NCBI GenBank assembly: GCA_022361255.1
Contig: JAKSBG010000437.1
Span: forward strand, 1 to 35,578
Length of the DNA stretch: 35,578 bases
Reading direction: 5' to 3'
Source: Verrucomicrobiales bacterium
GTDB taxonomy: Bacteria > Verrucomicrobiota > Verrucomicrobiia > Verrucomicrobiales > DEV007
In this document: positions 1 through 17,885 of the stretch, piece after piece
Layout: each line of letters starts with the position of its first letter
Position numbering within the stretch: the stretch's first letter is position 1
Made by a program: the position numbers and the translations under genes
The notes under the pieces: model-generated
Told to the model about the DNA's origin: nothing
The model's input: the letters and a program-made list of their open reading frames with translations, nothing else
Databases searched by the model: none

Positions 1-3000
1 TGAGAACAATCACTCCGCATCCTTCACCGCGACCGAATCCGTCCGCGCCGGCGGAAAATGACTTGCTGCGCCCGTCCGGGGAAAGAACGCCGCCCTTGCA
101 GAGAAGAATGGAGTTTACCGGACTGAGAATGGCGTTAACCCCGCCGGTAAGAGCAAGATTGCACTCCCCGTCGAGAAGAGCACGGGCAGCCTGACAAACC
201 GCCACGAGTGAACTGCTGCTCGCAGTGTCGACGGCAACTCCCGGCCCTTCAAACCCGAATAGAAAACTGAGTCGACCGACACCGGCGCTGTGGGAAAGCC
301 CCGCGCCCTGAGAACCTTCGAGGTCACCGGGGGCAATCTGCTCACGAAGCTGCGCGTAGTCCGTCGACATGATGCCCATGAAGACGCCCACCTGCCGATC
401 GGTGAGTTGATCCGGAACGATCCCGGCATCCTCCATCGCATGCCAACTTGTCTCGAGAAGCATGCGGTGCTGCGGATCCATCCAGATGGCATCTGTTTCG
501 GAAAGCCCGAAAAAGTCGGCATCGAACTCACCGATGTCGGGAAGAAACCCGCCGCGCTTCACATACATTTTTCCGGGCTTCGGCTCGGGATCGTAGAGCG
601 CCTCCATATCCCAGCGCTCCGCAGGGATGTCTATGGTTCCATCGCGGCCTTCGTGGAGCAGATTCCAGTATTCCTCCACTCCGTCGGCACCGGGAAAGCG
701 GCACCCCAAACCAATGATCGCCACTGAATCTTCGACCGTCGCTGCCTGAACCGTAACCGTTTCCTCTTCAGCCGGAACCGAATCGATCAGCTCAAGAAGA
801 TGCTCTGTCAGTTTGGAAACGCTCGGGTAGTCAAACGCCAGGGTTGGTGGAATCGCAAACCCACTGCCGACCTGCTGCTGAATGCGTGTGGCAAATTCAA
901 CGGCCATGAGCGAATCGAGCCCGAGCTCGGCGAGCGGGACGTCTTCGCCGGGAGGTTCGGGAAGGGAAAGAACCTGCTGCAATTCCGTTTCGACATGCTC
1001 TTTGAAAACACTTTCCCGCGACTCGCCGTTTTCGTCGGCCTCGCGCAGTTTTTCAAGGAGGACAGCGGGACCTCCGGACACCTGCATGGAATCCGTCCAC
1101 AACTCATCGAGAAGAGGCGGGGTCTCGACCGGATAACGCGTCCGCATTGTCGCCCAGTCAGCGTCGAGCATCGTCGCCTGTACAATGTCATTGTCGATGA
1201 GCCGGTCAATTGCTTCGTGCGCTTCGTCGGCAGCGAGAGGAGTGATCCCCTGAAGCTCCATCGCCTTGATTACATTTTCCGTTGCTGCCATTCCCTCGGT
1301 CCAGGGTCCGAAGTTGACACTTTGAGCGGGCAACCCCTCTCCTCTGCGCTGATGAGCAAGACCGTCGAGGTAGCCGTTTCCGCAGGCGTAGTTTGCCTGC
1401 CCCGGTGATCCGAGAACCGACGCAGCGGATGAGTAGAGAACAAAGAAATCGAGTTCTTTATCTTTCGTCAGTTCATGCAGCAATGCTGCCCCGCGTTTTT
1501 TCGGATTGAGCACTTTTTCGAAACGCTCCCAGGTCTGCTCAAAGAGAAGCCCGTCCTCCAGAACGCCCGCAGCGTGCAGGACCCCTTTGAGCGGGGGAAG
1601 CTCCTTCCCGATGCGATGAATCAGCTTTTGGAAACTCTTCTGATCGCTGATGTCAGCCAGCATGACATGGATACGGCACCCCGTCTCCTCGATCCCGGCG
1701 ATCAGCTCTTTCGTCGATTCGGTTGGTTCCCGACGGGAAACAAGGACAATATCTTTGGCGCCCTTCGAGCCGAGCCATTCCGCTCCGCGACGACCAAGCA
1801 TTCCCAGACCGCCAGTGATCAGATAGCTTGCGTCACCGCTTACTGGCAGCCCCTCTTCAGCGACCGGAGCCTTCGAAGGAATCAGCCTCGGAAAGTAAAT
1901 GGTTCCGCTGCGCAGACCAAGCTGGCTTTCCCTCGTTTCCGTCAGAAAAAGATCCACGAGATTTTCTGTGTTGTCCTCCGGGCTCTGGCTGTCAATCACC
2001 CGACCTCGCAAGGGCGGGTTTTCATTGATCACCACCCTGCCAAAACCCCAAAACTGGGCTGACTCGGCTCGCACTTTATCCTCCGGAAGGAAGGCTGCCG
2101 CATTGCCGGTCACGATTTGAAAACCCCGGTCAAGCCATTCAATGCGACGCGTGCGCATCGCCTTCAGGATTTCCAGAATCCCCTCGCAGTGACGACGGGT
2201 GTAGGAATCCGGGCCGTCGAGAACGGATTGCTCAGGCGCATCTCCCGTGTTCCAGATAATACCGTTGACCTGGCCGGATCCCTCTTCGGGAAAGTAGTGT
2301 GTCAGCAACTCCAGCCACTGGTCGTATTCGGAAGGTGCAATTTTTGCAGAGCGGTTCTCCAGCAAGGGCCCGCTCCCGGAAACCGTGTCGTCGAGCACGA
2401 CAGAAATCACATGCTGTCCTTTTTCAGAAAGCGAGTTGCCAATTGTGTCGTTCCAGTCCGGAGACTCCCCGACAACCAGCCACTGGCTGAAACGGTTGTT
2501 CAAAGGAGGCAGCTCCCCCTCACGCCATTGAATATCGTAGAGAAGACGGTCACTGCCTGATCCGGTCATCTGCCGGAGAGCGGTTCGATTGACCGCGCGA
2601 ACCTTCAATTTCCCGAGGCGGACAACAACATTTCCGGCGTCGTCAAAGAGCGTGAGATCTGCCGTCCGCATATCCCCTTCTGTCTCGTGCCACTTTCCGT
2701 GACACCAGAGCCCACCCGCCGAAGAGCCAATCGCGGCAGAGGAAAAGTTTTCGTAGGACTCGATCCCGACCGGAAGAAAGAGCGACGAATCCGCATCTCG
2801 AAGCAACCCAACGGCGAGACACTGGAAAGCCCCGTCGAGCAGCATCGGGGGTAGAAAGTAGCCGCGATGATCCCCCGCCAGCTCGAGGCGGGCGAGAACC
2901 TCCGAGTCATTGTATCGCAGGGAACGGATCGTCTGAAATTCCGTTCCGTAATGAATGCCCAGAGACGCGAACATCTGGTAGAAAGCAGCGGGATCCGCCG

Positions 3001-6000
3001 TTTCGGTGCAGACCGACTCTATCTCCGACCGCAGCACCTTCCCCGCCGCGTTTTTCCTGCCCGCTCCGATTCCTGCAGAAACATTCCGCACCCACGGCTG
3101 CCCCGCTCCTTCGTTGGAGTAAATTTCAATCGAGCCCTGATCGCCCTTTCGAACGACCGTCTGCATGGTGGTCGGACCGGATACCATCAGTGGCATCTCG
3201 AAGTTAAGATTCTCCAACACCCCGGCACCTCCCGTCGCGGCGACTGCCATCTCCACGTATCCGGCGCCGGGAAAGAGAACATCCTCAAACACGCGGTGAT
3301 CTCCGAGCCAGTGCTGTTTTTCCGGATCAATGTAGGATTCAAACCGCGATTCGTTCGATACTCCCGCCAGCTCCCGCTTCTCTCCCAGAATGGGATTTTG
3401 CGTCAATTGCTGAACCCGGGAAAGACCGGGCCGCTCCGGTCCCCAGTGACGCTTGCGCTGGAACGGATAAGTCGGCAGGGCAACCCGGCGACGATTGCCA
3501 TCCGGGTTCAGAATCGCGTCAAAATCGAGAGTGGCGCCCTGCTGAAAGAGCCTCGCGGTTGCTTCGTTGAGTAGGGTGCGATCATTGCCATCCTGTTCGA
3601 TGGTCGAAATGAGCGTTTCGGGAGAGCCACTCCAACAGGCGGCTGCCATTCCGGTGAGAAAGGCGCGCGGTCCCAGCTCGAGGATCAGGTCGCAGCGGTG
3701 TTCAGCGAGGTGCTGAATGCTTCCCTCAAACTGCACTGCCTCGCGAAGCTGTTTGCGCCAGTAGTCCCCGTCGGGAACAAAGTCAGGTGCGAGCACATTT
3801 CCTGACACATTGCAAATAAGTGGAATCGCAGCAGGCTGGAACGAAATCGAATCCGCCACCTGAGCAAACTCGTCAAGAATCGGATCGAGTAATGCGGAAT
3901 GAAACGCATGCGAGGTATCGAGACGTTTCGAGCGGATTTCCTCTTTTTCAAAATCAGCGAGAGCGGCATCCACATCCTTTCCCGGTCCACTTATGACAGT
4001 GTGCGATCCATTGTGAGCGGCGATGGACAGCCCCTCGTAGTTTTCCACGATCCGCTTCACTTCATCAGCTCCGGAGAAAACGGCAGCCATTGCCCCCCCT
4101 TCCGGGAGACTTCCGGTGAGTCTCGCCCGTTCGTGAATCAGGCGGATCCCATCCTTCCAATCAAGCATACCGGCAACGACGGCAGCCGCATACTGGCCGA
4201 GACTGTGCCCGAGAACGAAATCAGGGGTGCACCCCCGACTTTTCATCAATTCGGCAAGAGCGAGGTGAAATGCGAACAGCGCGGGCTGGGTCCAGTAGGT
4301 ATCCGCCAGCAGTTCCCCGTCTTCGAACATCACCTGAATCAGCTCACCCTCGCGGTATTTCGACAGCTCGGCAGCACATTCGTCGAGAACCTTTCGAAAG
4401 ACCGGCTCCGACTCGTAGAGCTCGCGTCCCATGCCTTCATACTGCGAACCCTGACCAGTAAACTGCCAGGCAACTGCGGGGTTCGGTCGGGCCGGTCCGA
4501 CAGAAAGACCGGGAGCATCGGATCCGGAGGCAAGTGCGGAAAGAGAATTGAGAAGTTGATCCCTGTCATCCGCAGCGATAGCTGCCCGAATCTCAAAATG
4601 ACGCCTCGTGGAAGCGACCGACCAGCAGAAATCGGCGGGGTCGACTTCCCGGGATAGAGTCTCCCGGTACTGGGCAGCCAACTGTTGAACGGCGCCTTCA
4701 TTTTTTCCGCTCAGCGGAAGGAGAATGGGTTGCGAGACGGATTCACCAGCTTCCGTTGGCTCCTTTTCCGGAGGGGATTCGATGAGGATATGAGCGTTGG
4801 TTCCACTCATTCCAAACGCACTCACCCCGGCGATGCGGCGCTTGTTGGCGGGCCACTCCGTGGCTTCGGTGACCACTTCCACGGGTAGGCGGTCCCAGGC
4901 AATATGGGGATTCGGAGTTTCAAAATGGAGGTGCGCCGGAATCCGGTCGTTTTGAATCGCAAGCACCGTTTTGATTACCCCTGCAATTCCTGCGGCGGCT
5001 TCGAGATGGCCCAGGTTTGTTTTCACCGAGCCGACGAGGAGAGGGTCGGTTTTGTCGCGGCCTTCTCCGAGAACAGAGGCCGCTGCATTCAGCTCGATCG
5101 GATCGCCGAGCTCGGTGCCGGTCCCGTGTGCTTCGAGATAGCTGACGTCGGAGGGGGAAAGCTCAGCCCGTTTCAGCGCTTCGCGAATAACCCGCTGCTG
5201 GGAGTCGGGGTTGGGCGCAGTCAGGCCGCTGCTAAAACCGTTGTGAGTGATCGCAGATCCGCGGATCACAGCGAGGACTTCATCCCCGTCGCGCTGCGCA
5301 TCGGAGAGTCGGCGCAAGGCGACAACGCCACACCCCTCGCCGCGTAAATAGCCGTCGGCGGACGCGTCGAATGCCCGGGAGTGCCCGCTTGGGGACAGCG
5401 CATGCAGCTTACAGGTCATAATGGTGGTCTTCGGGGACACCATCACGTTGACACCACCGGCGAGAGCGCGATCACACTCGCGGTTGCGAAGGCTCTGGCA
5501 CGCGAGATGCAGTGCCACGAGTGAGGAGGAGCATGCCGTATCCACGGCGAGGCTCGGCCCCTGCACACCAAGATAATAAGAAAGGCGACCACAGAGGAAA
5601 CTGCCTGCGGAACCCGTCGCGATGTAGGGATTCAGGTCGAGCAGCGATTCGCTGGCCTCGTTCTGGTAATCATTGTGCATCCAGCCGACAAACACACCGA
5701 TGTCATTGGCCGTTTTTTCCGTGGTCCATCCGGCCCTTTCCAGAGCCTCCCAGCCAACCTCAAGAAAGATCCGTTGTTGCGGATCGACCCACGTCGCTTC
5801 CCGGGGCGAAATGCCGAAAAAGTCAGCATCCATCTGGTCGATGTCTTCGAGAAAAGTTCCGCGCCGGGCGTACATCTTCCCGGGCTCATCCGCGTCCTCA
5901 TCGTAATAGGCATCGAGATCCCACCGGTCATCGGGCAGCTCGGAGGTGACGTCCTCCTTTTCCAGCAAACTTTCCCAGAAAGCCTCCGGGCTGCTGGAGC

Positions 6001-6124
6001 GTTTCGGAAAACGACAAGCCGTCGAAACAATTGCTATCGGTTCATTCGAACCGCTCTCGGCTTCCGCGAGCTTTTGCTTTAATTCGCGAATTTTGGCGAG
6101 TGCCTCTTTGGTAGGAGAAGACAT
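1..6124 (-). CDS. Type I modular polyketide synthase, KS-AT-DH-KR-ACP-KS(Ser), partial (C-terminus off left edge)
   Basis: The frame is open from an ATG at 6124 to the window edge, giving at least 2041 residues. A charged helix at residues 1-27 looks like an N-terminal docking domain. KS1 (about 28-455) has active-site Cys198 in DTACSSS and both His motifs (EAHGTGT, NLGHLE). AT (about 550-850) has Ser641 in GHSLGQ and HAFH near 740, which predicts malonyl-CoA. DH (about 905-1190) has His943 in an HxxxE...P form of the usual HxxxG...P motif, and Asp1097 in DGAFQ. KR (about 1430-1640) has GGLGMLG near 1438, Tyr1579 in NYACGN, and an LED triad in place of LDD, suggesting B-type stereochemistry. 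ACP carries Ser1738 in GLDSL. There is no ER. KS2 begins near 1800, but its catalytic position reads DTASSSS (Ser1969). It starts 42 bp after the A-ACP gene, as the last visible gene of the operon. No clear Shine-Dalgarno sequence precedes the ATG. Family and domain order are certain; the product is not. Confidence 0.95.
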   Translation of the reverse strand, partial: MSSPTKEALAKIRELKQKLAEAESGSNEPIAIVSTACRFPKRSSSPEAFWESLLEKEDVTSELPDDRWDLDAYYDEDADEPGKMYARRGTFLEDIDQMDADFFGISPREATWVDPQQRIFLEVGWEALERAGWTTEKTANDIGVFVGWMHNDYQNEASESLLDLNPYIATGSAGSFLCGRLSYYLGVQGPSLAVDTACSSSLVALHLACQSLRNRECDRALAGGVNVMVSPKTTIMTCKLHALSPSGHSRAFDASADGYLRGEGCGVVALRRLSDAQRDGDEVLAVIRGSAITHNGFSSGLTAPNPDSQQRVIREALKRAELSPSDVSYLEAHGTGTELGDPIELNAAASVLGEGRDKTDPLLVGSVKTNLGHLEAAAGIAGVIKTVLAIQNDRIPAHLHFETPNPHIAWDRLPVEVVTEATEWPANKRRIAGVSAFGMSGTNAHILIESPPEKEPTEAGESVSQPILLPLSGKNEGAVQQLAAQYRETLSREVDPADFCWSVASTRRHFEIRAAIAADDRDQLLNSLSALASGSDAPGLSVGPARPNPAVAWQFTGQGSQYEGMGRELYESEPVFRKVLDECAAELSKYREGELIQVMFEDGELLADTYWTQPALFAFHLALAELMKSRGCTPDFVLGHSLGQYAAAVVAGMLDWKDGIRLIHERARLTGSLPEGGAMAAVFSGADEVKRIVENYEGLSIAAHNGSHTVISGPGKDVDAALADFEKEEIRSKRLDTSHAFHSALLDPILDEFAQVADSISFQPAAIPLICNVSGNVLAPDFVPDGDYWRKQLREAVQFEGSIQHLAEHRCDLILELGPRAFLTGMAAACWSGSPETLISTIEQDGNDRTLLNEATARLFQQGATLDFDAILNPDGNRRRVALPTYPFQRKRHWGPERPGLSRVQQLTQNPILGEKRELAGVSNESRFESYIDPEKQHWLGDHRVFEDVLFPGAGYVEMAVAATGGAGVLENLNFEMPLMVSGPTTMQTVVRKGDQGSIEIYSNEGAGQPWVRNVSAGIGAGRKNAAGKVLRSEIESVCTETADPAAFYQMFASLGIHYGTEFQTIRSLRYNDSEVLARLELAGDHRGYFLPPMLLDGAFQCLAVGLLRDADSSLFLPVGIESYENFSSAAIGSSAGGLWCHGKWHETEGDMRTADLTLFDDAGNVVVRLGKLKVRAVNRTALRQMTGSGSDRLLYDIQWREGELPPLNNRFSQWLVVGESPDWNDTIGNSLSEKGQHVISVVLDDTVSGSGPLLENRSAKIAPSEYDQWLELLTHYFPEEGSGQVNGIIWNTGDAPEQSVLDGPDSYTRRHCEGILEILKAMRTRRIEWLDRGFQIVTGNAAAFLPEDKVRAESAQFWGFGRVVINENPPLRGRVIDSQSPEDNTENLVDLFLTETRESQLGLRSGTIYFPRLIPSKAPVAEEGLPVSGDASYLITGGLGMLGRRGAEWLGSKGAKDIVLVSRREPTESTKELIAGIEETGCRIHVMLADISDQKSFQKLIHRIGKELPPLKGVLHAAGVLEDGLLFEQTWERFEKVLNPKKRGAALLHELTKDKELDFFVLYSSAASVLGSPGQANYACGNGYLDGLAHQRRGEGLPAQSVNFGPWTEGMAATENVIKAMELQGITPLAADEAHEAIDRLIDNDIVQATMLDADWATMRTRYPVETPPLLDELWTDSMQVSGGPAVLLEKLREADENGESRESVFKEHVETELQQVLSLPEPPGEDVPLAELGLDSLMAVEFATRIQQQVGSGFAIPPTLAFDYPSVSKLTEHLLELIDSVPAEEETVTVQAATVEDSVAIIGLGCRFPGADGVEEYWNLLHEGRDGTIDIPAERWDMEALYDPEPKPGKMYVKRGGFLPDIGEFDADFFGLSETDAIWMDPQHRMLLETSWHAMEDAGIVPDQLTDRQVGVFMGIMSTDYAQLREQIAPGDLEGSQGAGLSHSAGVGRLSFLFGFEGPGVAVDTASSSSLVAVCQAARALLDGECNLALTGGVNAILSPVNSILLCKGGVLSPDGRSKSFSAGADGFGRGEGCGVIVL

Positions 6125-6166: not shown

Positions 6167-8074
6167 TCAACCCTCAAGCTCTTTTCGGAGGGCCTCTTCA
6201 GCCTCTTCTTCGCTCATTTCTTCGATGGAGCTGCCCACCGGTTCCGAACCCTTCGCGGCACCAAAATCCAGCTCTCCGAGAAGGTAGCCTGACAGATCAC
6301 AAATTCTCGGATAATCAAAGACGAGAGTCGCGGGCAGGTCGAGGTCGGATCCGAGTTGCGACTGCAGATTTTTCGCCAGCGTGACCATCGTCAGGGAATC
6401 CATTCCCGTCTCGAGAAGAGCCGTCTCGACAGCAGGCGCGGACTCACTTCCCGTCAGGGTGCGGATCTCCTCCTGTAGAAATTCCATGAGAACCCTCTCG
6501 CGGGTGGAAGCGTGGGAATTTTGAAGCTTAGACAGAATCGCACTGGGAGGTGAATCGCTCTTTTCAGGAGTCCTTTCGGTCTCTCCTCCGTACTGCGCCC
6601 GCAGCTCCTTCTTCAACACTTTGCCCGCCGGATTGCGTGGAAGATCATCGAGAAAAATGACGCGGGTCGGCGCTTTGTAAGAGGCAAGGTGCTCGAGGCT
6701 GTATGTACGAATTGCCTCTTCCTTTTTCTCTGCGCCATCCTTTGCGACGATGAAGGCCACCACCTCTTCGCCGAGCGTGTCATCAGGTAAACCGACCACC
6801 GCGCACTCTCCCACGGACGGCTCATCCAGAAGAACTCTCTCCACTTCCGATGGAAATACCTTCAGCGCTCCGACGGCAATCATATCCTTGATGCGGTCGA
6901 CGATGAAGTAGTAACCGGTCTCGTCCTTTCTCCCCACGTCGCCGGAGTAGAACCAACCGTCGCGAACCGCTTCCGCCGTTTCCCCGGGGCGATTCCAGTA
7001 ACCAATCATGACGTTGGGTCCCCGCACCGCGATTTCCCCGGGAACGTTCGCTGGGCAGGTCTCCCCTGTTTCCGGATCGACCACTTTCATTTCCACAAGG
7101 TCAACCGGAACACCGATCGAACCGGGAACGTGTCTTAGCGGATGGTTGTAGGAAGCGAACGGCGCTGTCTCGGTAAGACCGTATCCTTCGAAAATCGGCT
7201 TTTGAAACTTCTTTTCCCAGGCGAGCCCCAACTGAGGCGGCAACGTCGCTGCTGCGCAGAAATAATATTCGACAGTGTCGACATCTTCCGGGCCGCAGGC
7301 ATCCAGCATAAGTTGAAAGGTTGTCGGCACGCCGAAAAGTCTCGTCACGCGGTGATCGCGGATGAGGCGCAGGCTCTCTTTCAGATCAAAAACCCGCTGC
7401 ATCACGATGGTGGCTCCGACATTCAATCCACCGTTCAAAATCGTGTTCTGCCCGTAGCAATGAAACAGGGGAACCATCAGCAAGAGCTGATCGTCCGGCC
7501 TCATATGGCAGAGATGGTTGAAGGAGTGCACCGTCGATCTCACATTTTGATGAGAAAGCGTAGCCCCTTTCGGAAATCCCGTTGTTCCCGAGGTGTAAAG
7601 AATGATTGCCGGATCGTTCGGTTCTGTGGGATAGCAGGCTCCGGTATCGATGCGGGAGCCACCGGAAAGTGGCTTTCCGCCACAGTCACTTCCATTGTCC
7701 GAAACGGACAGGACCGGTATATCCGGAAACTCACCGGTAAATGCTTCATCCGTTCCTTGGGGAACAACCACAACGGAGGCCCCGCAATCTCCCAGAATGA
7801 AGGCTGCCTCTTCGCCGGTTAGGCGGGTATTTACGGATACCGCAATCGCCCCGAGACGAAGTGCTCCGTAATACCAGACGGGAAAAGCCAGCACATTCCC
7901 CAGAACGAGAGCCACCCGGTCGCCGGCTTTTACCCCGAGCTCCTCCAACGTAGAAGCTGCGTGCGCAGACAAAGCCTCCAGTTCGGAATAGGTGAGATCG
8001 GTCCCTTCGAAAGTCAGCGCGACTTTGTCGGGAAAAATGCGGAAATTATCGAGGAGTCCGTCGCTGATGTTCAT
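6167..8074 (-). CDS. Acyl-adenylating enzyme fused to an acyl carrier protein (PKS loading protein)
   Basis: This 635-residue protein belongs to the ANL superfamily. It has the A3 loop TSGTTG (161-166), A5 YGLTETAP (298-305), A7 SGDVG (377-381) and an A10 lysine in NPAGK (about 485). After a linker, an ACP (about 525-605) carries the phosphopantetheine serine at 560 in GMDSL. The last residues (MSEEEAEEALRKELEG) resemble C-terminal docking tails of modular PKSs. The protein probably makes an acyl-adenylate, passes the acyl group to its own ACP, and hands it to the PKS encoded immediately downstream. The lyase upstream suggests an aryl-acrylic acid substrate, but a fatty acid cannot be excluded from sequence alone. 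The start ATG at 8074 lies 34 bp after the lyase stop, with no strong ribosome site. Confidence 0.9.
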   Translation of the reverse strand: MNISDGLLDNFRIFPDKVALTFEGTDLTYSELEALSAHAASTLEELGVKAGDRVALVLGNVLAFPVWYYGALRLGAIAVSVNTRLTGEEAAFILGDCGASVVVVPQGTDEAFTGEFPDIPVLSVSDNGSDCGGKPLSGGSRIDTGACYPTEPNDPAIILYTSGTTGFPKGATLSHQNVRSTVHSFNHLCHMRPDDQLLLMVPLFHCYGQNTILNGGLNVGATIVMQRVFDLKESLRLIRDHRVTRLFGVPTTFQLMLDACGPEDVDTVEYYFCAAATLPPQLGLAWEKKFQKPIFEGYGLTETAPFASYNHPLRHVPGSIGVPVDLVEMKVVDPETGETCPANVPGEIAVRGPNVMIGYWNRPGETAEAVRDGWFYSGDVGRKDETGYYFIVDRIKDMIAVGALKVFPSEVERVLLDEPSVGECAVVGLPDDTLGEEVVAFIVAKDGAEKKEEAIRTYSLEHLASYKAPTRVIFLDDLPRNPAGKVLKKELRAQYGGETERTPEKSDSPPSAILSKLQNSHASTRERVLMEFLQEEIRTLTGSESAPAVETALLETGMDSLTMVTLAKNLQSQLGSDLDLPATLVFDYPRICDLSGYLLGELDFGAAKGSEPVGSSIEEMSEEEAEEALRKELEG

Positions 8075-8091: not shown

Positions 8092-8113
8092 CGGGTTACG
8101 GGTTCGGGTTACG
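8092..8113. repeat. Short direct repeat in the lyase/A-ACP spacer
   Basis: CGGGTTACG occurs at 8092-8100 and 8105-8113 with GGTT between, filling most of the 34-bp spacer and overlapping the lyase stop codon. Confidence 0.45.
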
Positions 8114-9848
8114 CAACTAACTCGACCTTGCCAAGAGAGTCAACGATCTCCGAAACAGCAGCAACAATTGCCCCTTCTCCGCGTATGGAATCAGCCAGAT
8201 CAGCCAGAATTTGCTCCAGCGAACGGTCCGAACCGTCGCTGATGAAGGGATCTTCACCTCCCGGCTTCTTTCCGGCTATTTCATATACCGCCTCATAGAT
8301 GGCGCGCAGATCGGAACCGAGAAGAGTCACGCCGTCACACTTCGACCGCGCCTTTCCGGCACGAAGATCCACGGCCTGAACGGCGAAAATGAGCGCAACA
8401 GCAGCGTAATTGGCAAAAAGATCCACAGACTGTGAAGCCAGATTTGCCGACCCCCAGCTGAGACCATTCACATTTTGATTGTACTGCTCGGCATGAGTCG
8501 GAAAGTGATCGACCAGGGAATTGCCGAGATGGGTCAACATCGGCATGATGGAGTTCCCCGTAATCTGAAGCCCCTTGAGATTCATATTCACCGGTGAATC
8601 CCCGTGCCCCATGAGAGAGGGAGGAAGACCGTGATTGAATTCGGGAGAAACAAGCAGCGCGATCTGCACGTCGAGATGCTTGGCAAGAAGACCGATGTGG
8701 CGACGAAGCTCGTCCATCGCCATCCCGACGTACTGACCGAGGAAATTCCCGCTTTGAAAAAACTCGCCCGCCTCGGTATCGATCAGCGGATTGTCGGTGA
8801 TCGCGTTCATTTCCGTCTCCAGCGTTTTTTCGATCCTGAGAATCCCTTCCACAATCGGGCCGATGTACTGGGGGAAGCAGCGAAGAGAATAGCGATCCTG
8901 CAGATGTTCGCGCGGATGAGCACGATCCATTTCCGTAGCCTGACCGTCCGTGAGGGCGAGAAGTCGCCTCATGATTTTGGCAGACCACGCCTGACCCGGA
9001 TGCGGTTTGCAGCGATGAACGAATTCCGCGAAAGGATCTTCATGACCGAGCAGGGCCCGGATCATCAACCCGTGTGTGGCGATGGAAATTCCGAGATAAT
9101 TTCGCACGGAATGAAGATGGTTCAGCGCAATCGCAGCGGAGAAAGAAGTCCCATTGACGATCGCCAGTGCCTCTTTGGGAAGCAGGGTGATGGGCTTGTA
9201 TCCGAGAAAATCGAGAACTTCGTCGCGATCGTATTCCCGACCGTTCATCGTGACCCGGCAGGAAGCAGCCTGTCCGGTAATGGCCCGGGCAATGGTGCCG
9301 AGCGGAATCAAGTCTCCACTCGCGCCAATCGATCCCAGCTCACCGACGACCGGCGATGCTCCGGCATTGATAAAACGAACGAGGCGCTCCACGATTTCCA
9401 TTCGCACACCCGATGCACCGCGAAGGAGCATATTGGCACGGAGCACCATGGCAGAGCGCACGTGAATTTCCGCAATCGGCTTCCCGGTTCCGGCGGCCAG
9501 AAACTCGAGCAAATTTGTCTGGGAGGCTTCGGCATCAGATGCGCAAACCGGAAGATCGGCCATGCTTCCGAATCCGGTTGTGAGTCCGTAAATCCGCTGC
9601 CCTGAATCCACCGCCTTGCGGACCAGATCCTGAGAAGCCTTCATTTCCTCGAGCACTTTCGGATCGTCCGTTATCGAGACCGATCGAGCCCCCGAGGCTA
9701 CGGAATACACTTCATCAATTGTCAATTGCTGGCCACGAAGGCAAAGCGGGCTGACCTGCCCGACATTTGACGTGTCGGTCTGGAAGGTTCGATTCGACAT
9801 CTGAAAAGAAAGGAAGGAGTAGGTAACAAAGTTAGGGTCGGCTGTCAC
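8109..9848 (-). CDS. MIO-type aromatic amino acid ammonia-lyase (HAL/PAL/TAL family)
   Basis: The 579-residue protein has the hallmarks of the histidine/phenylalanine/tyrosine ammonia-lyase family. These are catalytic Tyr87 in YGLTTGFG, the self-cyclising Ala176-Ser177-Gly178 triad that forms the MIO electrophile (in GSIGASGDL), and downstream NPLI and EQYNQNVN motifs. It should remove ammonia non-oxidatively from an aromatic amino acid to give the trans-acrylic acid. The specificity loop reads EFLAAG (115-120) and not the SHAAG form I associate with HAL, so Phe or Tyr is a better substrate guess than His. An aminomutase is also possible. I use a GTG start at 9848, preceded by GAGGGG. An ATG at 9800 would remove a non-conserved 16-residue extension. 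The next gene is an A-ACP protein, so this enzyme probably supplies the PKS starter acid. Confidence 0.9.
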   Translation of the reverse strand: MTADPNFVTYSFLSFQMSNRTFQTDTSNVGQVSPLCLRGQQLTIDEVYSVASGARSVSITDDPKVLEEMKASQDLVRKAVDSGQRIYGLTTGFGSMADLPVCASDAEASQTNLLEFLAAGTGKPIAEIHVRSAMVLRANMLLRGASGVRMEIVERLVRFINAGASPVVGELGSIGASGDLIPLGTIARAITGQAASCRVTMNGREYDRDEVLDFLGYKPITLLPKEALAIVNGTSFSAAIALNHLHSVRNYLGISIATHGLMIRALLGHEDPFAEFVHRCKPHPGQAWSAKIMRRLLALTDGQATEMDRAHPREHLQDRYSLRCFPQYIGPIVEGILRIEKTLETEMNAITDNPLIDTEAGEFFQSGNFLGQYVGMAMDELRRHIGLLAKHLDVQIALLVSPEFNHGLPPSLMGHGDSPVNMNLKGLQITGNSIMPMLTHLGNSLVDHFPTHAEQYNQNVNGLSWGSANLASQSVDLFANYAAVALIFAVQAVDLRAGKARSKCDGVTLLGSDLRAIYEAVYEIAGKKPGGEDPFISDGSDRSLEQILADLADSIRGEGAIVAAVSEIVDSLGKVELVA

Positions 9849-9979: not shown

Positions 9980-12900
9980 TCACCCCTTCCTGGCAATTGA
10001 TCGCGAATTTCGGAGTCGGCGAGGAAAAACCCGGGATCGGATCTTCCTTGTTCTTCGAGAAGATGGCCCTCCCGCAACGACTGGAGGAGGCCTCTCAGCG
10101 GGGCCAGCAACCGCCGGGATTCCCCTCCCGATAAAGAGCAAATACAGTGATGGAACGAAAAACAGGGCAAGTATGGTCGCTCCGCCTACCCCTCCGGCAA
10201 TCGTAATTGCAACCGGAGGCCAGAAGCCTCCCCCGCCCATCACAAGAGGGATAAATCCGGCAATGGTCGTCAGACTGGTCGCGACAATGTGGCGCGTTCG
10301 CCGGATTACGATATCCGCAATCGCCTCGGGGACTCCCGCCCGGGCATTCTTATCGTCCCGGATCCCGGCCATTACGACAATGGCATCGTTCACCGCAACG
10401 CCGACAAGGCCCATTGTTCCGACGACCCCCATGAATCCGAAGGGAAATCCAAAAGCCCACAGCGCACCCAGCCCCAGCCCAATCGAGAGACCGCCGACCA
10501 CCGCAACGACGAACGCAACCCGAAACGACCGGAAAGAGGTGACGAGCGTTGCGATCATGAGAACGATCAGCAGAGGAATGTCAGCCATCAAATTGCCGAC
10601 CGCTTCATCGCGTTTCGCCGCTTCGCCCCCGTATTCCATCGAATAACCGGGCGGCAGAACGAAATCCGAGTTTTCCAGCTTTTCTTTGAACTCCGTCACG
10701 ACGAGATGGGGCAGCGTTCCTGCTGTGATATATGCCTTCACTTCATTGACCCGCTTTCCATCGATGCGGGGAATCGAGGCGACCTCCGAGCTGAGATTGA
10801 TTTCCCCGAGAGCCGCGAGAGGAGTCGCATTCTGAGCTCTCCCGCGCGGGGTGAGAGGGCGCAACTCAAACGAGGATATCCTCCCGGTATCGGCGCGCGT
10901 TTCCCCCGCGAGACGAACGCGGATGGGAATTTCTTCGGTATCCTCGATTAGGGATCCGCTCTCCAGGCCCTCGAGAGAAGAATAGAGCTGCTGCTCGATC
11001 TCCCGGTGGCTCAGACCGGACATTCTCGCCTGGTGTTCGTCGAGATGCAGAGCGAGCTTCGGAACCATTTCGGTGAGATCCGACCGGGTGTGCACCACGT
11101 CCCTCGTCTCTGTCATGAGAACACGCACTTCATTTCCCAGCTTCTGAAGGACAGCCAGGTCGGGTCCGAAAATTTTCACCTCCACCGGAGCGTCAAAGGC
11201 CGGCCCCTGCTCCAGCTGGCGGACGAGCAGACGTGCCTCCGGAAATTCTGCGTCCAGTTTGTCCTGCAGTCTGCGAATCATGTCACGGGAATCGACGCCG
11301 TCGGAAAACTGAACCAGCGCCTGCGCGTAAAAGGCCGAATTTTTCCGGCGCGGCATGACGTTGTAGTAAAACGTCGGAGCGCTTTCCCCGAGAAACCAGT
11401 GAATGCGATCCACACCTTCCAGCTCCAATGCCGATTCCCGCATCTCCCGTGCGACCGCCGTCGTCTGTTCGAGCGAGCTGGAAGCAGAAAGTTCGAGCTC
11501 GATCTGAACCTGGTCCCGGTCCGCTGGCGGAAAGAATTGCTCCGGCAGTTTTTTCGCCTGATAAAATCCAAAAATGGGTAGAGAAACTCCCAGCAAAACA
11601 CCTAAAACAGGAATTCGGAACAACCCGACGAGGATCTTTCGATAGCCCCCGGCTGCCGCCTCATTTCCAATACCGTTGGACCAGAAACCATACCCTGTTG
11701 AGTCTCCCGCTTTACCCTGTTGAGTCAGTTTGTTGATCAATCCCGTCAGGGCGGGGACAACCGTCATCGCGAGAAGAAAGGAGGAATTGATCGCGAGAAT
11801 CACACTCACCGCGATAGAGCCGACAAATTCACCACTGGCACCCGGCAGCATCGCGATCGGGGCAAATGCCAACGTTGTCGTCAGAGTCGAGCCGAACAGG
11901 GGAAGAGCGAGATGCCGGATCGTTTTGAGAATCGCTTCACGAGGCGTGCTTCCGTCCCGGATTTCCGCACTGACTTCGTCGACCATGACAATGGCGTTGT
12001 CGATGAGAAGACCCAGCGCAATGATCAGTCCCGTAACCGACATCTGATGAATGGGGATTTCGAGAAAGCGCATTCCCGCAATCACCATCATGGCTGAAAG
12101 GGGCAGTGCGATCCCCACCACCACCATGCTACGCCACCCCATGAGCAGGAAGACAACGAAGGTCACCGCAAGCGTACCAACGAGCAAATTCCCCGCCAGT
12201 TGAACGAGACGGTCCTGCACGTAGGCATTCTGTGTAAAAAGAACATCCAGCTCCACACCGGGAGGGAGCGTTTTCTCAAATTCACCCAGAATTTCGTCGA
12301 GTTCCTTTGTCCACAAATCGATGCGGCTTTCCTCGCGAACAAATGCGGCGGTAACAACGGCATCGAGCCCGTCGACCATGGCGCGATTCGCGGGCGGGTT
12401 CCCGATGGTTTTCTGAATGTCGGCAATCTCGTCCAGATTTGTGAGTCGACCTTCCTCCCCATACCGGATCGGGGTGTTCCCGACCCGCTTAAGCGTATCG
12501 AAATCCTGATCCAGTTCGATGACCAATTCCGAGTTTTCATTCCGGAGCATGCCGGACGAACCTTTCGCCTCGCTCTCTTCGATCTGTTTTGACAAATCAC
12601 CTATCGTCAACCCCATGCGATGGAGCACATCCTGGGGAACCTCGACGAGAATTTCCTCTTCCGGCTGCCCGAAGAGACCGACGCTCTCCGTTCCCCGCAG
12701 CGACCGGATCTCCGCTTTCAAATCTTCCGTGAGGCGGCGCAGGATCGCGTAGTTCGCCTCCCCCTGCCCGGTCCACTTCAGCGCGAGAATGGTGGCATAG
12801 GCACGCAACTCCGGCTGCTTGAAATCCGGATTCATCGCACCCTCGGGAAGGCGTTTCGCCGTCTCCGAGATTTCGTCCCGCACGCGCGACCAGACGGTGT

Positions 12901-13204
12901 CGACGTCGGTAATGTCTTCATTCAGCTCAACACCGACGGTGGAGAGTCCGGCCATGCTGTCCGTACGGATTTCTTTGATCCCTTTTACCTTGCGGATATC
13001 CTCCTCCAGAGGACGGGAAATCTGCGACTCAACACGTTCGGCGTCAGCACCGGGGAAAACGGTTCGAATCACCCCGAAACGCTGCACGAGGATCGGATCC
13101 TCCATGCGTGGCAGAGTGGTATAGGAGGTCACTCCGGCCACTCCGATAATCCCGATCAGCAGCAGAAGCAGCCGGGGATTCTGGAAAAGAAGCGCTCCGG
13201 TCAC
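9980..13204 (-). CDS. RND efflux pump permease subunit (AcrB/HAE1-like)
   Basis: The 1074-residue inner-membrane transporter has the usual two-fold layout: TM1 (about 12-28), a porter/docking domain, TM2-6, then a repeat of the same arrangement. TM4 carries the proton-relay Asp in GLLIDNAIVMVDE (DN, where AcrB has DD), and TM10 carries VNDAIVVM. The start is GTG, sharing GTGA with the stop of the fusion-protein gene and preceded by a good GGAGGA, so the two are translationally coupled. Residues about 493-505, in the cytoplasmic linker between TM6 and TM7, are encoded by two copies of the ACCCTGTTGAGTC repeat. The last 40 residues are rich in Pro and Arg and are not typical of the family. The likely role is export of, or self-protection from, the cluster product. 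No TolC-like gene is in the window. Confidence 0.95.
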   Translation of the reverse strand: MTGALLFQNPRLLLLLIGIIGVAGVTSYTTLPRMEDPILVQRFGVIRTVFPGADAERVESQISRPLEEDIRKVKGIKEIRTDSMAGLSTVGVELNEDITDVDTVWSRVRDEISETAKRLPEGAMNPDFKQPELRAYATILALKWTGQGEANYAILRRLTEDLKAEIRSLRGTESVGLFGQPEEEILVEVPQDVLHRMGLTIGDLSKQIEESEAKGSSGMLRNENSELVIELDQDFDTLKRVGNTPIRYGEEGRLTNLDEIADIQKTIGNPPANRAMVDGLDAVVTAAFVREESRIDLWTKELDEILGEFEKTLPPGVELDVLFTQNAYVQDRLVQLAGNLLVGTLAVTFVVFLLMGWRSMVVVGIALPLSAMMVIAGMRFLEIPIHQMSVTGLIIALGLLIDNAIVMVDEVSAEIRDGSTPREAILKTIRHLALPLFGSTLTTTLAFAPIAMLPGASGEFVGSIAVSVILAINSSFLLAMTVVPALTGLINKLTQQGKAGDSTGYGFWSNGIGNEAAAGGYRKILVGLFRIPVLGVLLGVSLPIFGFYQAKKLPEQFFPPADRDQVQIELELSASSSLEQTTAVAREMRESALELEGVDRIHWFLGESAPTFYYNVMPRRKNSAFYAQALVQFSDGVDSRDMIRRLQDKLDAEFPEARLLVRQLEQGPAFDAPVEVKIFGPDLAVLQKLGNEVRVLMTETRDVVHTRSDLTEMVPKLALHLDEHQARMSGLSHREIEQQLYSSLEGLESGSLIEDTEEIPIRVRLAGETRADTGRISSFELRPLTPRGRAQNATPLAALGEINLSSEVASIPRIDGKRVNEVKAYITAGTLPHLVVTEFKEKLENSDFVLPPGYSMEYGGEAAKRDEAVGNLMADIPLLIVLMIATLVTSFRSFRVAFVVAVVGGLSIGLGLGALWAFGFPFGFMGVVGTMGLVGVAVNDAIVVMAGIRDDKNARAGVPEAIADIVIRRTRHIVATSLTTIAGFIPLVMGGGGFWPPVAITIAGGVGGATILALFFVPSLYLLFIGRGIPAVAGPAERPPPVVAGGPSSRRTRKIRSRVFPRRLRNSRSIARKG
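11691..11726. repeat. 22-bp-period repeat, two units, inside the RND pump gene
   Basis: TACCCTGTTGAGTC occurs at 11691-11704 and 11713-11726, exactly 22 bp apart. It lies in frame in the RND gene and encodes LTQQGKAGDSTGY in the linker between TM6 and TM7. The core matches the two intergenic arrays at 18512 and 29797. Confidence 0.7.
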
Positions 13205-14310
13205 GACTCCTCCTTTGTTTCCTCCGGTTCGCCGGGCTCGCCTTCCCCACTCTCTTCCAGTTCCTCCGGCTCCTCCGGATTACCCTCTTCTCCCGCAATC
13301 GCTATCGGCTGCCCCGGAACAATCCGGTGGGTTCCGTCAGCGATGACTTTGACTTTTCCATCAAGCGTTCCGCGAATCCAGGCACGGTCATTCTCGACGT
13401 GCACGACTTCCACGTAGTGACGGGCGACGCGAGCTTCCTCCCCTTCCCCTTCCACGACAAAGGCGGACCAGAGCCCCCGCGTTTCCCGGCTCAAAGCGGT
13501 CAGAGGGAGCCAGTATCCGGGAATAGATTTGGTACGTGTCAGGGTAAGGTCGACCACTTCTCCCGGCCGGTGCTGATCTGAAACCGACTCATCGAGTGAG
13601 AACACCACCGTTCGGGTGCGGGCGCTCTGATCCACCTCCGGAAGAATCGCGGTGACCGGCGTTGAGAAAGTATTCTCCCCGATGGTGAGATCGTGAAACT
13701 CACCTTCTGAAATTTCGTCGGCCACTTCGACAGGAACGCCAACCCAAACCTCCAGTTGATCTCCGCCGACAATTCGGAAAACCGGCATTCCCGGGCTCGC
13801 GACGGAACCTACTGACATCTGCTGCGCGGAAATCTCCCCTGCGAAAGGCGCTTTGAGAATGCTGTCCTCCAGATCGAGATCCACGAGATCGGCATCCGCT
13901 TCCGTTACGTTCCCACGACCGGGGCTTCCTGCGCTTTTCGAGAGAGCGTCGTCGATTTTTTCCTTCTGCAATTCGAGGCGTCGGGTATCGAGCTTCGCGA
14001 GCACGTCCCCTTTTGATACCGAATCACCGGGGCCGGCATTGATCTCAATGACAGTTCCCGCTTTGGAAAATCCGAGGTCGACCGACTCTTTTGGCCTGGT
14101 CACTCCTGTGTATGTCCTTGTCAGGGCAAATGAATCAGCAGGCTCGACGTCGATCGTATTTACGGTAAGGCGACGGAGCTCCCGTTCCCCACTGCTTACT
14201 CCCTCTTCTTCCGAGCCGGACTGTCCGCCCAGAAGAACCACAACAATCAGACCTGCCAGAAGAAGACAAACGAGCAGGGAAAGGGTGTTGTTGACCTTCT
14301 GAGCATTCAT
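13201..14310 (-). CDS. RND periplasmic adaptor (membrane fusion protein, HlyD/AcrA-like)
   Basis: The 369-residue protein starts at the ATG giving MNAQKVNN. A TTG further upstream (14361) would overlap the previous gene and add nothing recognisable. Residues about 10-28 form a membrane anchor. A split lipoyl domain follows (AGPGDSVSKGDVLAKLD ... ILKAPFAGEIS), then beta-barrel and membrane-proximal domains. The alpha-helical hairpin between the lipoyl halves is very short, about 20 residues per arm against the long hairpin of AcrA. The C-terminus is an extended Glu/Gly/Pro-rich acidic tail. It overlaps the RND gene by 4 bp, so the two form one pump. It lies 31 bp downstream of the halogenase-like gene. 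Confidence 0.9.
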   Translation of the reverse strand: MNAQKVNNTLSLLVCLLLAGLIVVVLLGGQSGSEEEGVSSGERELRRLTVNTIDVEPADSFALTRTYTGVTRPKESVDLGFSKAGTVIEINAGPGDSVSKGDVLAKLDTRRLELQKEKIDDALSKSAGSPGRGNVTEADADLVDLDLEDSILKAPFAGEISAQQMSVGSVASPGMPVFRIVGGDQLEVWVGVPVEVADEISEGEFHDLTIGENTFSTPVTAILPEVDQSARTRTVVFSLDESVSDQHRPGEVVDLTLTRTKSIPGYWLPLTALSRETRGLWSAFVVEGEGEEARVARHYVEVVHVENDRAWIRGTLDGKVKVIADGTHRIVPGQPIAIAGEEGNPEEPEELEESGEGEPGEPEETKEES

Positions 14311-14341
14311 AGAACAAAAACAGGTGGTTGGGAGCGGGAAA

Positions 14342-15970
14342 TCAGATGCCGAGTGCCTCAAAGACCTCAGCGAGGCGACCGCCCTGAGCCGGCGGAGACG
14401 GATCCTCTCCTTCTTTCATCAGGCCGCCCCGGGCAATAATTTCGCCCGCAAGTTCTTCGAGAATGACCGCGTTCCTGCGAAAGCGGGCATCCAGCTCCGC
14501 GTCATTGAGATGCTCACGCAGCTCTCCATTCAACTGGGCGAGAATCGCGATTTCATTTTGGTTGATGAACGAAAGCGATGAATCGCGGGCTGAATCGGCG
14601 TCGTGCCAGTCGCGAAAGAACTGCTGCATGCGAACGTTAAGAGCGCGAATCGACTCAATACTTTCCCCGATACGGGATACAAACCCCGGATCGGTAAGCT
14701 TGTCGTTAAAATACAGAAGCGCAGGGAATCCCCAATAGATTGCGTAATCCCACACATACTTGAGCGACATGACTCTCGGATTCCCAAAGAGACGATACTG
14801 GTCCTCGTAGGTGAGCAGATTGTCCTGAAACAACTGCAGAAAAAGCCCCTGGTATCGGGGTGCGATGAGACGCAGAGACTCCCCCGCAAGATCCCGCTCA
14901 ATCATGCTGCAAATCTGCATGTTGGCCATCGCGATATAATCGATCCCCGGAGAGTAGAGCGGGTCGAGAAAAACTCCTGCCTCCCCCGTGATTGCCCATC
15001 GGTCCATCGAATAGATCTGCTTGCAGCCATGTGCGATTTGTTTGATGGCACGGAAATCCTGAAGCTCGTCCCGATGCGCTTCAATTGCCTCGGCACATTT
15101 CGGTTCGTGCTTTCGAATCCAGGCCAGCGCTTTCTCGAACTGATTGAATTCACGGACGGGATGCAAACGGGGATCCGCCACGATTCCAATGCTGGTGGCA
15201 CCGGAAGAAAGAGGAATGATCCAGATCCAGTAGCCCTCCCCGAGAAGGTGGTTCGTGCTGAGCCAGCGTCGCGGAACATTTCCGGTGCGGGCCTTCCAGT
15301 CCGCATCTTCGCTCCAGCAATCCACGCAAATTTCCCCGCCGATACGAAACCACGCAGCATTTACCTTATGAGAAACTTCCTCCTGCAGTCCGAGCTTTTT
15401 CTTGAGCACCGCACTCCTGCCACTCGCATCAACGATCCAGCGCGACTCGATCCGGTGATCTTCCCCATCGACCCGATACTCGACTTTGTGCATCACGTCG
15501 CCGTCACAGAGCTCAACCTCTATCACCTTCGCCTTCTCGAGAAATGTCACTCCGCGTTCCCGAAGAGTTTTCACGAGGTAGTTTTCGAGGCGACCCCGGT
15601 CAATCTGGTAACCGGGAGTGGGGAAAAAATCGGTGAGACCCACTTCGAAAGCATCATCAAATGAATCACAGCCCCCGTCGAAGAAAAACCGCAGCCCGAA
15701 CTTCGGAAGCTGATCGTCGACGAGGTGCTTTTTCAATCCGACCCTTTCAGCGAGATAGTGTGCGCCCGCTTCGATGGTAGACTCTCCGACTTTGTGTGCC
15801 CCTTCCGGCACCGGAAACTCCCGGCGCTCAAGAATGAGAATTTTCAAATCAGGATGTTGATCCGACAACTGCTTCGCGAGAGTCATGCCGGAAAGACCGC
15901 CACCAAGAATCGCCACGTCATAAACCGGACCGCAGGAAGCGGCCGATGATGTTTCACCGTCTGATATCAT
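14342..15970 (-). CDS. Flavin-dependent halogenase-like FAD protein, copy 1
   Basis: The 542-residue protein has an N-terminal FAD fold with GGGLSG (23-28), HKVGES (59-64), a lysine at 90 in PKFGLRFFF in the place expected for the catalytic lysine of flavin-dependent halogenases, the WxWxIP signature as WIWIIP (248-253), and FLDPLYSPG (334-342), matching the second halogenase motif FxxPxxSxG. VDASGR near 180 is also typical of the wider family. The expected reaction is FADH2- and O2-dependent halogenation of an electron-rich aromatic, probably free or ACP-bound. A hydroxylase or dehydrogenase role in the same fold cannot be excluded. It is the first gene of the leftward cluster operon and a close paralogue of the divergent gene at 16200. 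No clear Shine-Dalgarno sequence precedes the ATG. Confidence 0.85.
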   Translation of the reverse strand: MISDGETSSAASCGPVYDVAILGGGLSGMTLAKQLSDQHPDLKILILERREFPVPEGAHKVGESTIEAGAHYLAERVGLKKHLVDDQLPKFGLRFFFDGGCDSFDDAFEVGLTDFFPTPGYQIDRGRLENYLVKTLRERGVTFLEKAKVIEVELCDGDVMHKVEYRVDGEDHRIESRWIVDASGRSAVLKKKLGLQEEVSHKVNAAWFRIGGEICVDCWSEDADWKARTGNVPRRWLSTNHLLGEGYWIWIIPLSSGATSIGIVADPRLHPVREFNQFEKALAWIRKHEPKCAEAIEAHRDELQDFRAIKQIAHGCKQIYSMDRWAITGEAGVFLDPLYSPGIDYIAMANMQICSMIERDLAGESLRLIAPRYQGLFLQLFQDNLLTYEDQYRLFGNPRVMSLKYVWDYAIYWGFPALLYFNDKLTDPGFVSRIGESIESIRALNVRMQQFFRDWHDADSARDSSLSFINQNEIAILAQLNGELREHLNDAELDARFRRNAVILEELAGEIIARGGLMKEGEDPSPPAQGGRLAEVFEALGI

Positions 15971-16199: not shown

Positions 16200-17885
16200 A
16201 TGGCGGATTCGGAATCCAAACACTACGACGTGATCATCCTCGGAGGAGGACTGGCCGGACTCACCTGCGCATTACACTGCCGCAAGCAAACCCCCTCGGC
16301 CACCATTGCAGTGATTGAAAAAGCCGGGCACCCGGTCCCGGAAGCGACCCATAAAGTCGGAGAGTCCAGCGTCGAAGTGGGAGCGCATTACCTCGGCGAG
16401 TTTCTCGGGTTCAGAGATCATCTCGAAAACGATCAAATTCCGAAAATGGGCCTTCGCCTCTTTTTCGACCGGGGCGACAATTCGAAAATTGAAAACCGTC
16501 TCGAGGTAGGCGGTACAGATTTCCCCCCGCACCAAAGCTACCAGTTCGACCGGGGCCGTTTCGAAAACTTCTTAGCCGAACAATGTCTTGATCAGGACAT
16601 CGACTTCATTTCCTCCGCCCGAATCAAAGAGGTAAATCTCAATAGCGGGAAGAACGACCACGTCGTTCGCTACGAGAAAGAAGAGGAAAAAAGAGAGCTC
16701 ACCTCGCGCTGGGTCGTCGACGCAAGCGGCCGGGCCGGACTGCTCAAGCGCAAGCTGGAGCTGAAAAAAGATTCGGCCCACAAAAACAACTCAGCCTGGA
16801 TCCGTATCGGGACCCGCATCAAAGTTGACGACTGGAGCGACGACGCGGAGTGGGGGAAAAACTTTACGGAAGATCATCCCCGCTGGCAGAGCACCAATCA
16901 CTTTCTGGGGGAAGGCTACTGGATCTGGATTATCCCTCTCGCTTCCGGTTCCACCAGCATCGGAATTGTCGCAGATCCCAAAGTCCATCCTCTCGACGAG
17001 TTCAACTCGAAAGAGAAATTCCTCGCCTGGATCGAAAAGATGCAGCCGCAGCTCGGGGCGAACCTCCGTGCCAATGAATCCGCGATTCAGGATTTTCTCG
17101 CGATCAAGCGCTACGCGATGGAGTGCAAGGAAATGTTCTCAAACGATCGCTGGGGCATCGTCGGAGACGCCGGATATTTCATCGATCCTTTCTATTCGCC
17201 GGGGAATGATTTCATCGCGATGGCAAACTTCTTTGTTTGTGAGCTGATTGATCGCGACCTCAAAGGAAAGTCCAACCTGCTGCGCGTCCCCGTCTACAAC
17301 AAACTGTTCCGTCTGTTCTATCATGGCACCGGAGCCATTTTTCAGGACAACTACCCGCTTTTCGGCCACCACCAGATCATGCCGATCAAAATCGTCTGGG
17401 ACTGGATGGTCTACTGGACGATCACCGGACACATCGTCATTCAGGAAAGGATTACGGATCCGAAGATTTTCCTGCGCCACATGTTTCACCTGAAGCGGCT
17501 CAACGATTTGAACGAGACAATGCAGGCGCATTTCCGAAAATGGGGAAAAACCGTTCCGCCAATGGAGCTGGGCGGAACCATCGACACGTCGAAAATGTGC
17601 TTTCTCATGGGAGTAAACCGCTCCCTTGGAGACAAGCTCGATGACAAGCAGTTCTCCGAGCGCTTCGCGAAGAACGTCCGCCAGATGGAAACGCTTTTCT
17701 GGGAGATCGCCGACCACTCCGGTATCGAGATGAAAGCCCCCTTCCGTCGGAGGGAGCACGCCGACACCACAAAAGGCGGCTTTGAAATGGTGTTCCGGAT
17801 CTCTCAGGGAGAACCCTACGAAATGCCGGAAGACAGCGGCATGATGAAGGAGACCCCGATGACGGAAACTCCCGCCATGGTTTGA
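16200..17885 (+). CDS. Flavin-dependent halogenase-like FAD protein, copy 2
   Basis: The 561-residue protein has the same architecture as the divergent copy: GGGLAG (15-20), HKVGES (51-56), Lys82 in PKMGLRLFF, WIWIIP (241-246) and FIDPFYSPG (327-335). The two align almost end to end by eye and clearly arose by duplication. The C-terminal tails differ: this one ends in a Met/Pro/Thr-rich stretch. The ATG at 16200 has no visible Shine-Dalgarno sequence. Reaction and cofactor are presumed as for copy 1. Two copies suggest either two halogenation positions or one halogenase plus one non-halogenating oxidase. It belongs to the cluster by homology and position, although it is on the opposite strand. 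Confidence 0.85.
   Translation: MADSESKHYDVIILGGGLAGLTCALHCRKQTPSATIAVIEKAGHPVPEATHKVGESSVEVGAHYLGEFLGFRDHLENDQIPKMGLRLFFDRGDNSKIENRLEVGGTDFPPHQSYQFDRGRFENFLAEQCLDQDIDFISSARIKEVNLNSGKNDHVVRYEKEEEKRELTSRWVVDASGRAGLLKRKLELKKDSAHKNNSAWIRIGTRIKVDDWSDDAEWGKNFTEDHPRWQSTNHFLGEGYWIWIIPLASGSTSIGIVADPKVHPLDEFNSKEKFLAWIEKMQPQLGANLRANESAIQDFLAIKRYAMECKEMFSNDRWGIVGDAGYFIDPFYSPGNDFIAMANFFVCELIDRDLKGKSNLLRVPVYNKLFRLFYHGTGAIFQDNYPLFGHHQIMPIKIVWDWMVYWTITGHIVIQERITDPKIFLRHMFHLKRLNDLNETMQAHFRKWGKTVPPMELGGTIDTSKMCFLMGVNRSLGDKLDDKQFSERFAKNVRQMETLFWEIADHSGIEMKAPFRRREHADTTKGGFEMVFRISQGEPYEMPEDSGMMKETPMTETPAMV

Follow-up and report, generated by a model that had tools for sequence, protein, structure and literature searches.

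What does a ketosynthase (KS) do when it has Ser in place of its catalytic Cys and stands at the end of a type I polyketide synthase (PKS), behind a complete extending module? The question is raised by a 35,578-base stretch of Verrucomicrobiales DNA (the window), in which the initial annotation read DTACSSS with Cys198 in the first KS (KS1) and DTASSSS with Ser1969 in the second (KS2), the latter residue being encoded by AGC at positions 218 to 220 of the minus strand. Translation of the open reading frame (ORF) confirmed both readings.

The PKS gene (1 to 6124, minus strand) starts with ATG at 6124-6122 and is cut off by the contig end at position 1, giving a minus-strand ORF of 2041 amino acids (2 to 6124) that is open at the window edge. 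Given that the window is the complete contig G000:C241, KS2 is truncated by the assembly, and only its 243 N-terminal residues are encoded here (2 to 730, minus strand). The end of this contig has 17 bases (window positions 1 to 17) in common with the end of a second contig, G000:C271, such that the break falls inside KS2. The remainder of the gene would occupy bases 18 to 1687 of C271 (plus strand), and the joined frame comprises 2597 amino acids with zero stops. From the assembly overlap and the open frame, we infer that C271 continues the PKS gene; intact orthologues back the join, as does an SDR gene that follows the PKS both in C271 and in one of these orthologues (L033).

The order KS-AT-DH-KR-ACP-KS given in the initial annotation is correct, based on Pfam matches in the orthologues and on a motif table in which the key motifs of KS1, AT1, KR, and ACP are all present. 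KS1 (4787 to 6043; this and all following domains on the minus strand) has the active form, with Cys198, His333, Lys368, His373, and AFGMSGTN (Pfam ketoacyl-synt on an orthologue). AT1 (3449 to 4474) is intact, with GQGSQ, GHSLGQ, and SHAFHS (Pfam Acyl_transf_1 on an orthologue), and is presumably malonyl specific, judging from its HAFH motif. These domains are followed by a DH (2615 to 3412; LLDGAFQ motif; Pfam PS-DH/PKS_DH_N on orthologues), a KR (1295 to 1828; TGGLGMLG, PGQANYACGN, and an LED motif; Pfam KR on orthologues), and an ACP (797 to 1009; GLDSL; Pfam PP-binding on orthologues). A DNA search of phage records yielded no match to the PKS gene.

Conservation and origin of the serine ketosynthase

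A species-genome scan identified orthologues in two Verrucomicrobiales MAGs, L033 and L034 (78% and 74% identity in KS2, respectively), and in one Planctomycetota MAG, L035 (64%). Two further Planctomycetota genomes, G542 and G521, came from a phylum sample, and in each of these the locus lies on a contig of >7 Mb. In all five relatives, as in the window, the nucleophile position is occupied by Ser in the case of KS2 and by Cys in that of KS1. The KS2 Ser codon is AGC throughout, except for AGT in L035. For the L034 PKS, the sequence comes from the ends of two contigs (L103 and L034), with the middle join inferred, but its KS2 and C terminus are found together on a single 92-kb contig.

Outside this group, Cys is the rule. 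Ser occupies the KS2 nucleophile position in 6/6 orthologues (the window included) versus 0/96 other KS domains compared, and all 96 comparison domains have the catalytic Cys in the DTACSSS motif. The remaining matches of the genome scan, none of them more than about 50% identical, show Cys wherever the motif was read; in the phylum samples, beyond the two new Planctomycetota Ser copies, the domains inspected were Cys domains only, with the AT nearly always intact. A scan of 388 genomes of the phylum for the motif with a serine codon of the AGY type, the only type covered, matched the window alone. A WSN active-site pattern, which also matches Cys codons and was used as a base rate only, was searched in 24 genomes, mostly of Actinomycetota, where nearly all KS-like matches listed had TGY.

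Apart from its nucleophile, KS2 is a complete KS. The KS histidines, which lie past the window edge, are both present in the joined protein together with the lysine: EAHATGT (His2104), KANLSHLEAA (Lys2139 and His2144), and ALGMTGTNAH. All six KS2 copies keep this active-site His/His/Lys set. When near-invariant columns were defined as those at least 95% conserved in the 96 Cys-type KS domains, 62 columns qualified, of which KS2 keeps 57 in all six copies. Two of the five departures are shared by 6/6 copies, namely, Ser for Cys and, in FGxxGTN, Leu for Phe; the others are NxSH for NxGH in 5/6, EAHA for EAHG in 3/6, and one Leu in 2/6. All but one of the five are located at the active site. The Phe of FGxxGTN is found in about 99% of the 96 other KS domains. 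With changes at the nucleophile, beside both histidines, and in the active-site loop, the pattern is that of a re-tasked active site rather than of decay. The Phe-to-Leu position is that of the Phe two residues before the gate residue F400 of FabF (SFGFGGTN). At the gate itself KS2 has Met or Leu, so that no gating role is claimed for the substitution.

The C-terminal part of KS2 lies on C271 (L074:5-1687), where it is followed by a second AT (AT2). In AT2, GHSxG is replaced by GEGIG, and GQGSQ and AFHS are absent. At the corresponding position L033 has GAGSG and the three Planctomycetota copies have GFGIG, and in L034 AT2 is lost, such that KS2 leads directly into the post-AT tail and the end of the protein. 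The window PKS ends after the post-AT linker, and all complete copies stop after KS2-AT2 or KS2; neither a second ACP nor a thioesterase was found after KS2 in the joined protein or the orthologues. In an AlphaFold model of KS2-AT2, the AT2 part has a pLDDT mostly between 75 and 93, and the KS2 part is of poor confidence; structural comparison of the model confirmed the AT fold only and pointed to CalA3, the release module discussed below. Across the AT2 equivalents (L074:5-1687 in G000:C271, L033:11264-12424, L035, and L099/L100), the AT fold is kept, and the catalytic Ser, His, and GQGSQ are gone. A separate variation affects the DH: the window and L033 copies have Glu or Asp instead of the Gly of the HxxxGxxxxP motif (window region 3265 to 3305), which the Planctomycetota copies keep.

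To estimate selection, pairwise dN/dS values were calculated by the Nei-Gojobori method (own script) for L035 against G542 and G521, at a dS of about 0.8 for the KS domains, and for G542 against G521. For L035 versus G542 and G521, respectively, the values were 0.036 and 0.033 for KS2, 0.040 and 0.042 for KS1, 0.094 and 0.082 for AT1, and 0.203 and 0.196 for AT2; for G542 versus G521, they were 0.031 (KS2), 0.051 (KS1), 0.143 (AT1), and 0.296 (AT2). KS2 is constrained as strongly as the working KS1, and AT2, evolving at 2 to 3 times the rate of AT1, is relaxed yet not neutral. The combination of a tightly held KS2 with a relaxed AT2 is not the behavior of a domain merely stripped of function.

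A maximum-likelihood tree of 79 KS domains unites the six Ser domains in one clade (support 100/100). Its sister, with 100/97 support for the pairing, is the clade of KS1 domains from these PKSs and their relatives. This sister relationship points to duplication of the module, and the tree further places the fixation of Ser before the split between the Verrucomicrobiota and Planctomycetota copies.

Neighboring genes and the putative pathway

Beside the PKS, on the same strand, lie genes for an AMP-dependent acyl ligase fused to an ACP (6167 to 8074, minus strand; Pfam AMP-binding, AMP-binding_C, and PP-binding), a candidate for starter activation, and an aromatic amino acid lyase with the MIO motif GASG (8109 to 9848, minus strand). 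The closest solved relatives of the lyase include cyanobacterial phenylalanine ammonia-lyases, and its selectivity residues (FL) suggest phenylalanine as the substrate, that is, a cinnamate starter. Two conserved neighbors encode an RND efflux pump (9980 to 13204, minus strand; Pfam ACR_tran) and an HlyD-type membrane fusion protein (13201 to 14361, minus strand). They are followed by two genes for FAD-dependent halogenase-like proteins, both with the motif WIWIIP (14342 to 15970, minus strand, and 16200 to 17885, plus strand), so that the aryl product is likely halogenated. This pair (WxWxIP) is divergent in the window and codirectional in Planctomycetota.

The Planctomycetota copies are accompanied by the same set of ligase-ACP, lyase, RND, HlyD, and two halogenase-like genes, and G004 agrees with this as far as its genes were checked. 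The likely pathway consists of a cinnamoyl-type starter, one reducing module that is perhaps iterative, halogenation, and export. Among the conserved cluster genes, no thioesterase, reductase, or condensation domain that could serve release was found.

Candidate roles of the terminal KS-AT pair

The placement of KS2 behind a full extending module is unusual, as the initial annotation stated, and this odd position and the change from Cys to Ser make normal condensation unlikely. There is, we estimate, an even chance that KS2-AT2 is instead a cis-fused C-terminal chain-release pseudo-module with a Ser nucleophile, a reading made by analogy with CalA3. The transfer-only domain that had been listed initially among several options comes close to this.

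CalA3 is the experimentally established chain-release module of calcimycin (PMC10006239; PDB 7wvz and 8i4y). It has no ACP, and its AT has lost both the catalytic Ser, replaced by Gly, and the His (G651 and L755); its KS keeps C-H-H and the Lys and by itself performs amidation or hydrolysis (PMC10006239). Amidation was abolished in each of the mutants C197A, H332A, H372A, L437A, and K367A (PMC10006239). KS2-AT2 resembles CalA3 in its terminal position, the missing ACP, a dead AT with Ser changed to Gly, and the retained His/His/Lys, and the CalA3 cluster likewise offers no thioesterase for release. The two also share a substitution: in a gap-free alignment of CalA3 residues 423 to 452, C436-L437-T438-L439 falls on the canonical S-F-G-V, which places L437 at the position where all six KS2 copies have Leu for the canonical Phe. 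The 30-residue CalA3 query was composed to include the reported residues, so that the alignment, with the numbering of the paper, fixes the register only.

The differences are also clear. The nucleophile is Cys in CalA3 and Ser in KS2; release is therefore proposed by analogy only, and no membership in the CalA3 family is claimed. CalA3 is a separate protein with DH/KR remnants, whereas KS2-AT2 is fused to the C-terminal side of an extending module, with the dead AT as its last domain. Further observations count against the release reading. In one genome, G025, the PKS does not adjoin the lyase and is split over two contigs. Hydrolysis was still increased in the CalA3 mutants, including C197A (PMC10006239), which leaves the part of the nucleophile in hydrolysis itself ambiguous, and among the conserved genes none was seen that would supply an acceptor amine or alcohol. 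For a functional Ser in a KS fold, DpsC provides a precedent (PMC12664062); the Ser-type KS domains of polyene loading modules, in which an ACP stands behind the AT, provide a second (PMC4540446).

Under the release reading, the copy that arose by duplication of KS-AT within the same PKS would then have lost condensation. KS1-AT1-DH-KR would build the chain from an aryl, probably cinnamoyl, starter on the only ACP of the PKS, and the chain would be moved from the ACP onto Ser1969 of KS2 as an ester. His2104 would activate water or a small nucleophile, freeing the product, with Lys2139 and His2144 positioning it, and AT2 may be retained solely as a structural lid. In its most general form, which we put forward tentatively as a possible account, tandem module duplication would have turned a KS into a cis-acting, thioesterase- or acyltransferase-like release domain with a Ser nucleophile, taking the place of a thioesterase in a type I PKS that is aryl primed, possibly iterative, and common to Verrucomicrobiota and Planctomycetota.

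KS domains with a known role other than joining carbon to carbon are few, and the structurally characterized release KS, that of CalA3, keeps its Cys; no description of a Ser-type terminal KS or of this cluster was found in the open-access literature. A Ser KS with a dead AT and no ACP, kept in two phyla beside an active sister, constitutes a natural test of condensation versus release, and because KS1 and KS2 stem from one duplication, the few changed residues can be swapped singly. If the release reading is true, it would explain how thioesterase-less PKSs finish their products, and such clusters would be annotated correctly rather than as containing a broken extra module.

An unlikely alternative is that KS2 is a structural or chain-length-factor (CLF)-like partner, which would perform no chemistry itself but would set the chain length or stabilize the dimer of an iterative PKS with a single module. 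KS2 is sister to KS1, as CLFs are to their KS, its Cys is replaced, AT2 is dead, and a single functional extension module makes iteration plausible. A comparable case is the aryl polyene pair ApeO-ApeC (PMC8358021), in which the polyketide is aryl primed and the active KS is accompanied by an inactive partner derived from a KS. However, ApeO-ApeC is a free-standing type II system, and ApeC, the aryl polyene CLF, has just one of the two thiolase folds (PMC8358021), whereas KS2 is a full-length KS whose apparatus, with 57/62 near-invariant columns, is not degraded. The CLF-like option of the initial annotation is further disfavored by the two histidines and the lysine, on which an inert partner would exert no hold and which persist in six of six copies from two phyla.

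Alternatively, KS2 could act as a KS-S decarboxylase that converts malonyl-ACP, loaded by AT1, to acetyl-ACP, which we consider quite unlikely. Ser-for-Cys KS-S domains are known in the type I loading PKSs RimA, NysA, and PimS0 of polyene macrolide biosynthesis, for which decarboxylation has been suggested, and RimA, like the window PKS, works with a carboxylic acid ligase-ACP (PMC4540446). The retained His/His/Lys is compatible with such a role, and the condensation-incompetent KSQ domains (PikA1, 7uwr; GfsA, 7vee) keep their histidines as well. The architectures are nevertheless different: the RimA loading module is ligase-ACP-KS-S-AT-ACP, with an ACP behind the AT, and KSQ domains occupy an N-terminal loading position, whereas KS2 is C-terminal, is followed by a dead AT, lacks its own ACP, and is not in a loading module. 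The KSQ features (Gln, where KS2 has Ser, ELHGTGT, and SFGMGGTN) are absent from KS2, which has EAH[A/G]TGT and ALG[ML][TA]GTN. In NysA, mutagenesis implicated Ser413, not the active-site Ser (PMC4540446), and in the window a starter would already be provided by the lyase and the ligase-ACP.

Slow, Ser-dependent condensation by KS2, using the malonyl-ACP of module 1, is very improbable. It has a parallel in daunorubicin DpsC, a KS III-like protein that uses the triad Ser118-His297-Asp302, self-acylates, and was shown to transfer the acyl group to its ACP (PMC12664062); this subfamily and its triad differ from those of KS2, and DpsC has a priming role whereas KS2 is terminal. KS2 is also without its own AT or ACP and has lost the FGxxGTN Phe in 6/6 copies. 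Finally, a sequencing error or the recent inactivation considered in the initial annotation, which a single base between AGC and TGC would suffice to produce, is practically ruled out by Ser in six copies from two phyla that form one fully supported clade, by the synonymous AGC/AGT difference at this codon, and by the KS2 dN/dS of about 0.03.

Distribution of the locus

Carriers of the Ser-KS2 PKS amount to 3 or 4 of 34 same-genus genomes and 3 of 392 genomes in the Planctomycetota sample, and this patchy spread suggests horizontal transfer. The genome of the L034 copy (G025; contigs C295/C140 and C168; L034, L103, and L107) has its PKS apart from the lyase and a halogenase-like gene; unrelated genes precede the PKS start, AT2 is deleted, and the PKS halves are on separate contigs, so that this PKS may be a relocated or differently used copy. 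In a seventh carrier, G002 (L108 = G002:C189; G002:C546), KS2 is unassembled; the lyase, ligase-ACP, and KS1 are present, and the lyase and the PKS N terminus are, respectively, 96% and 92% identical to those of the window.
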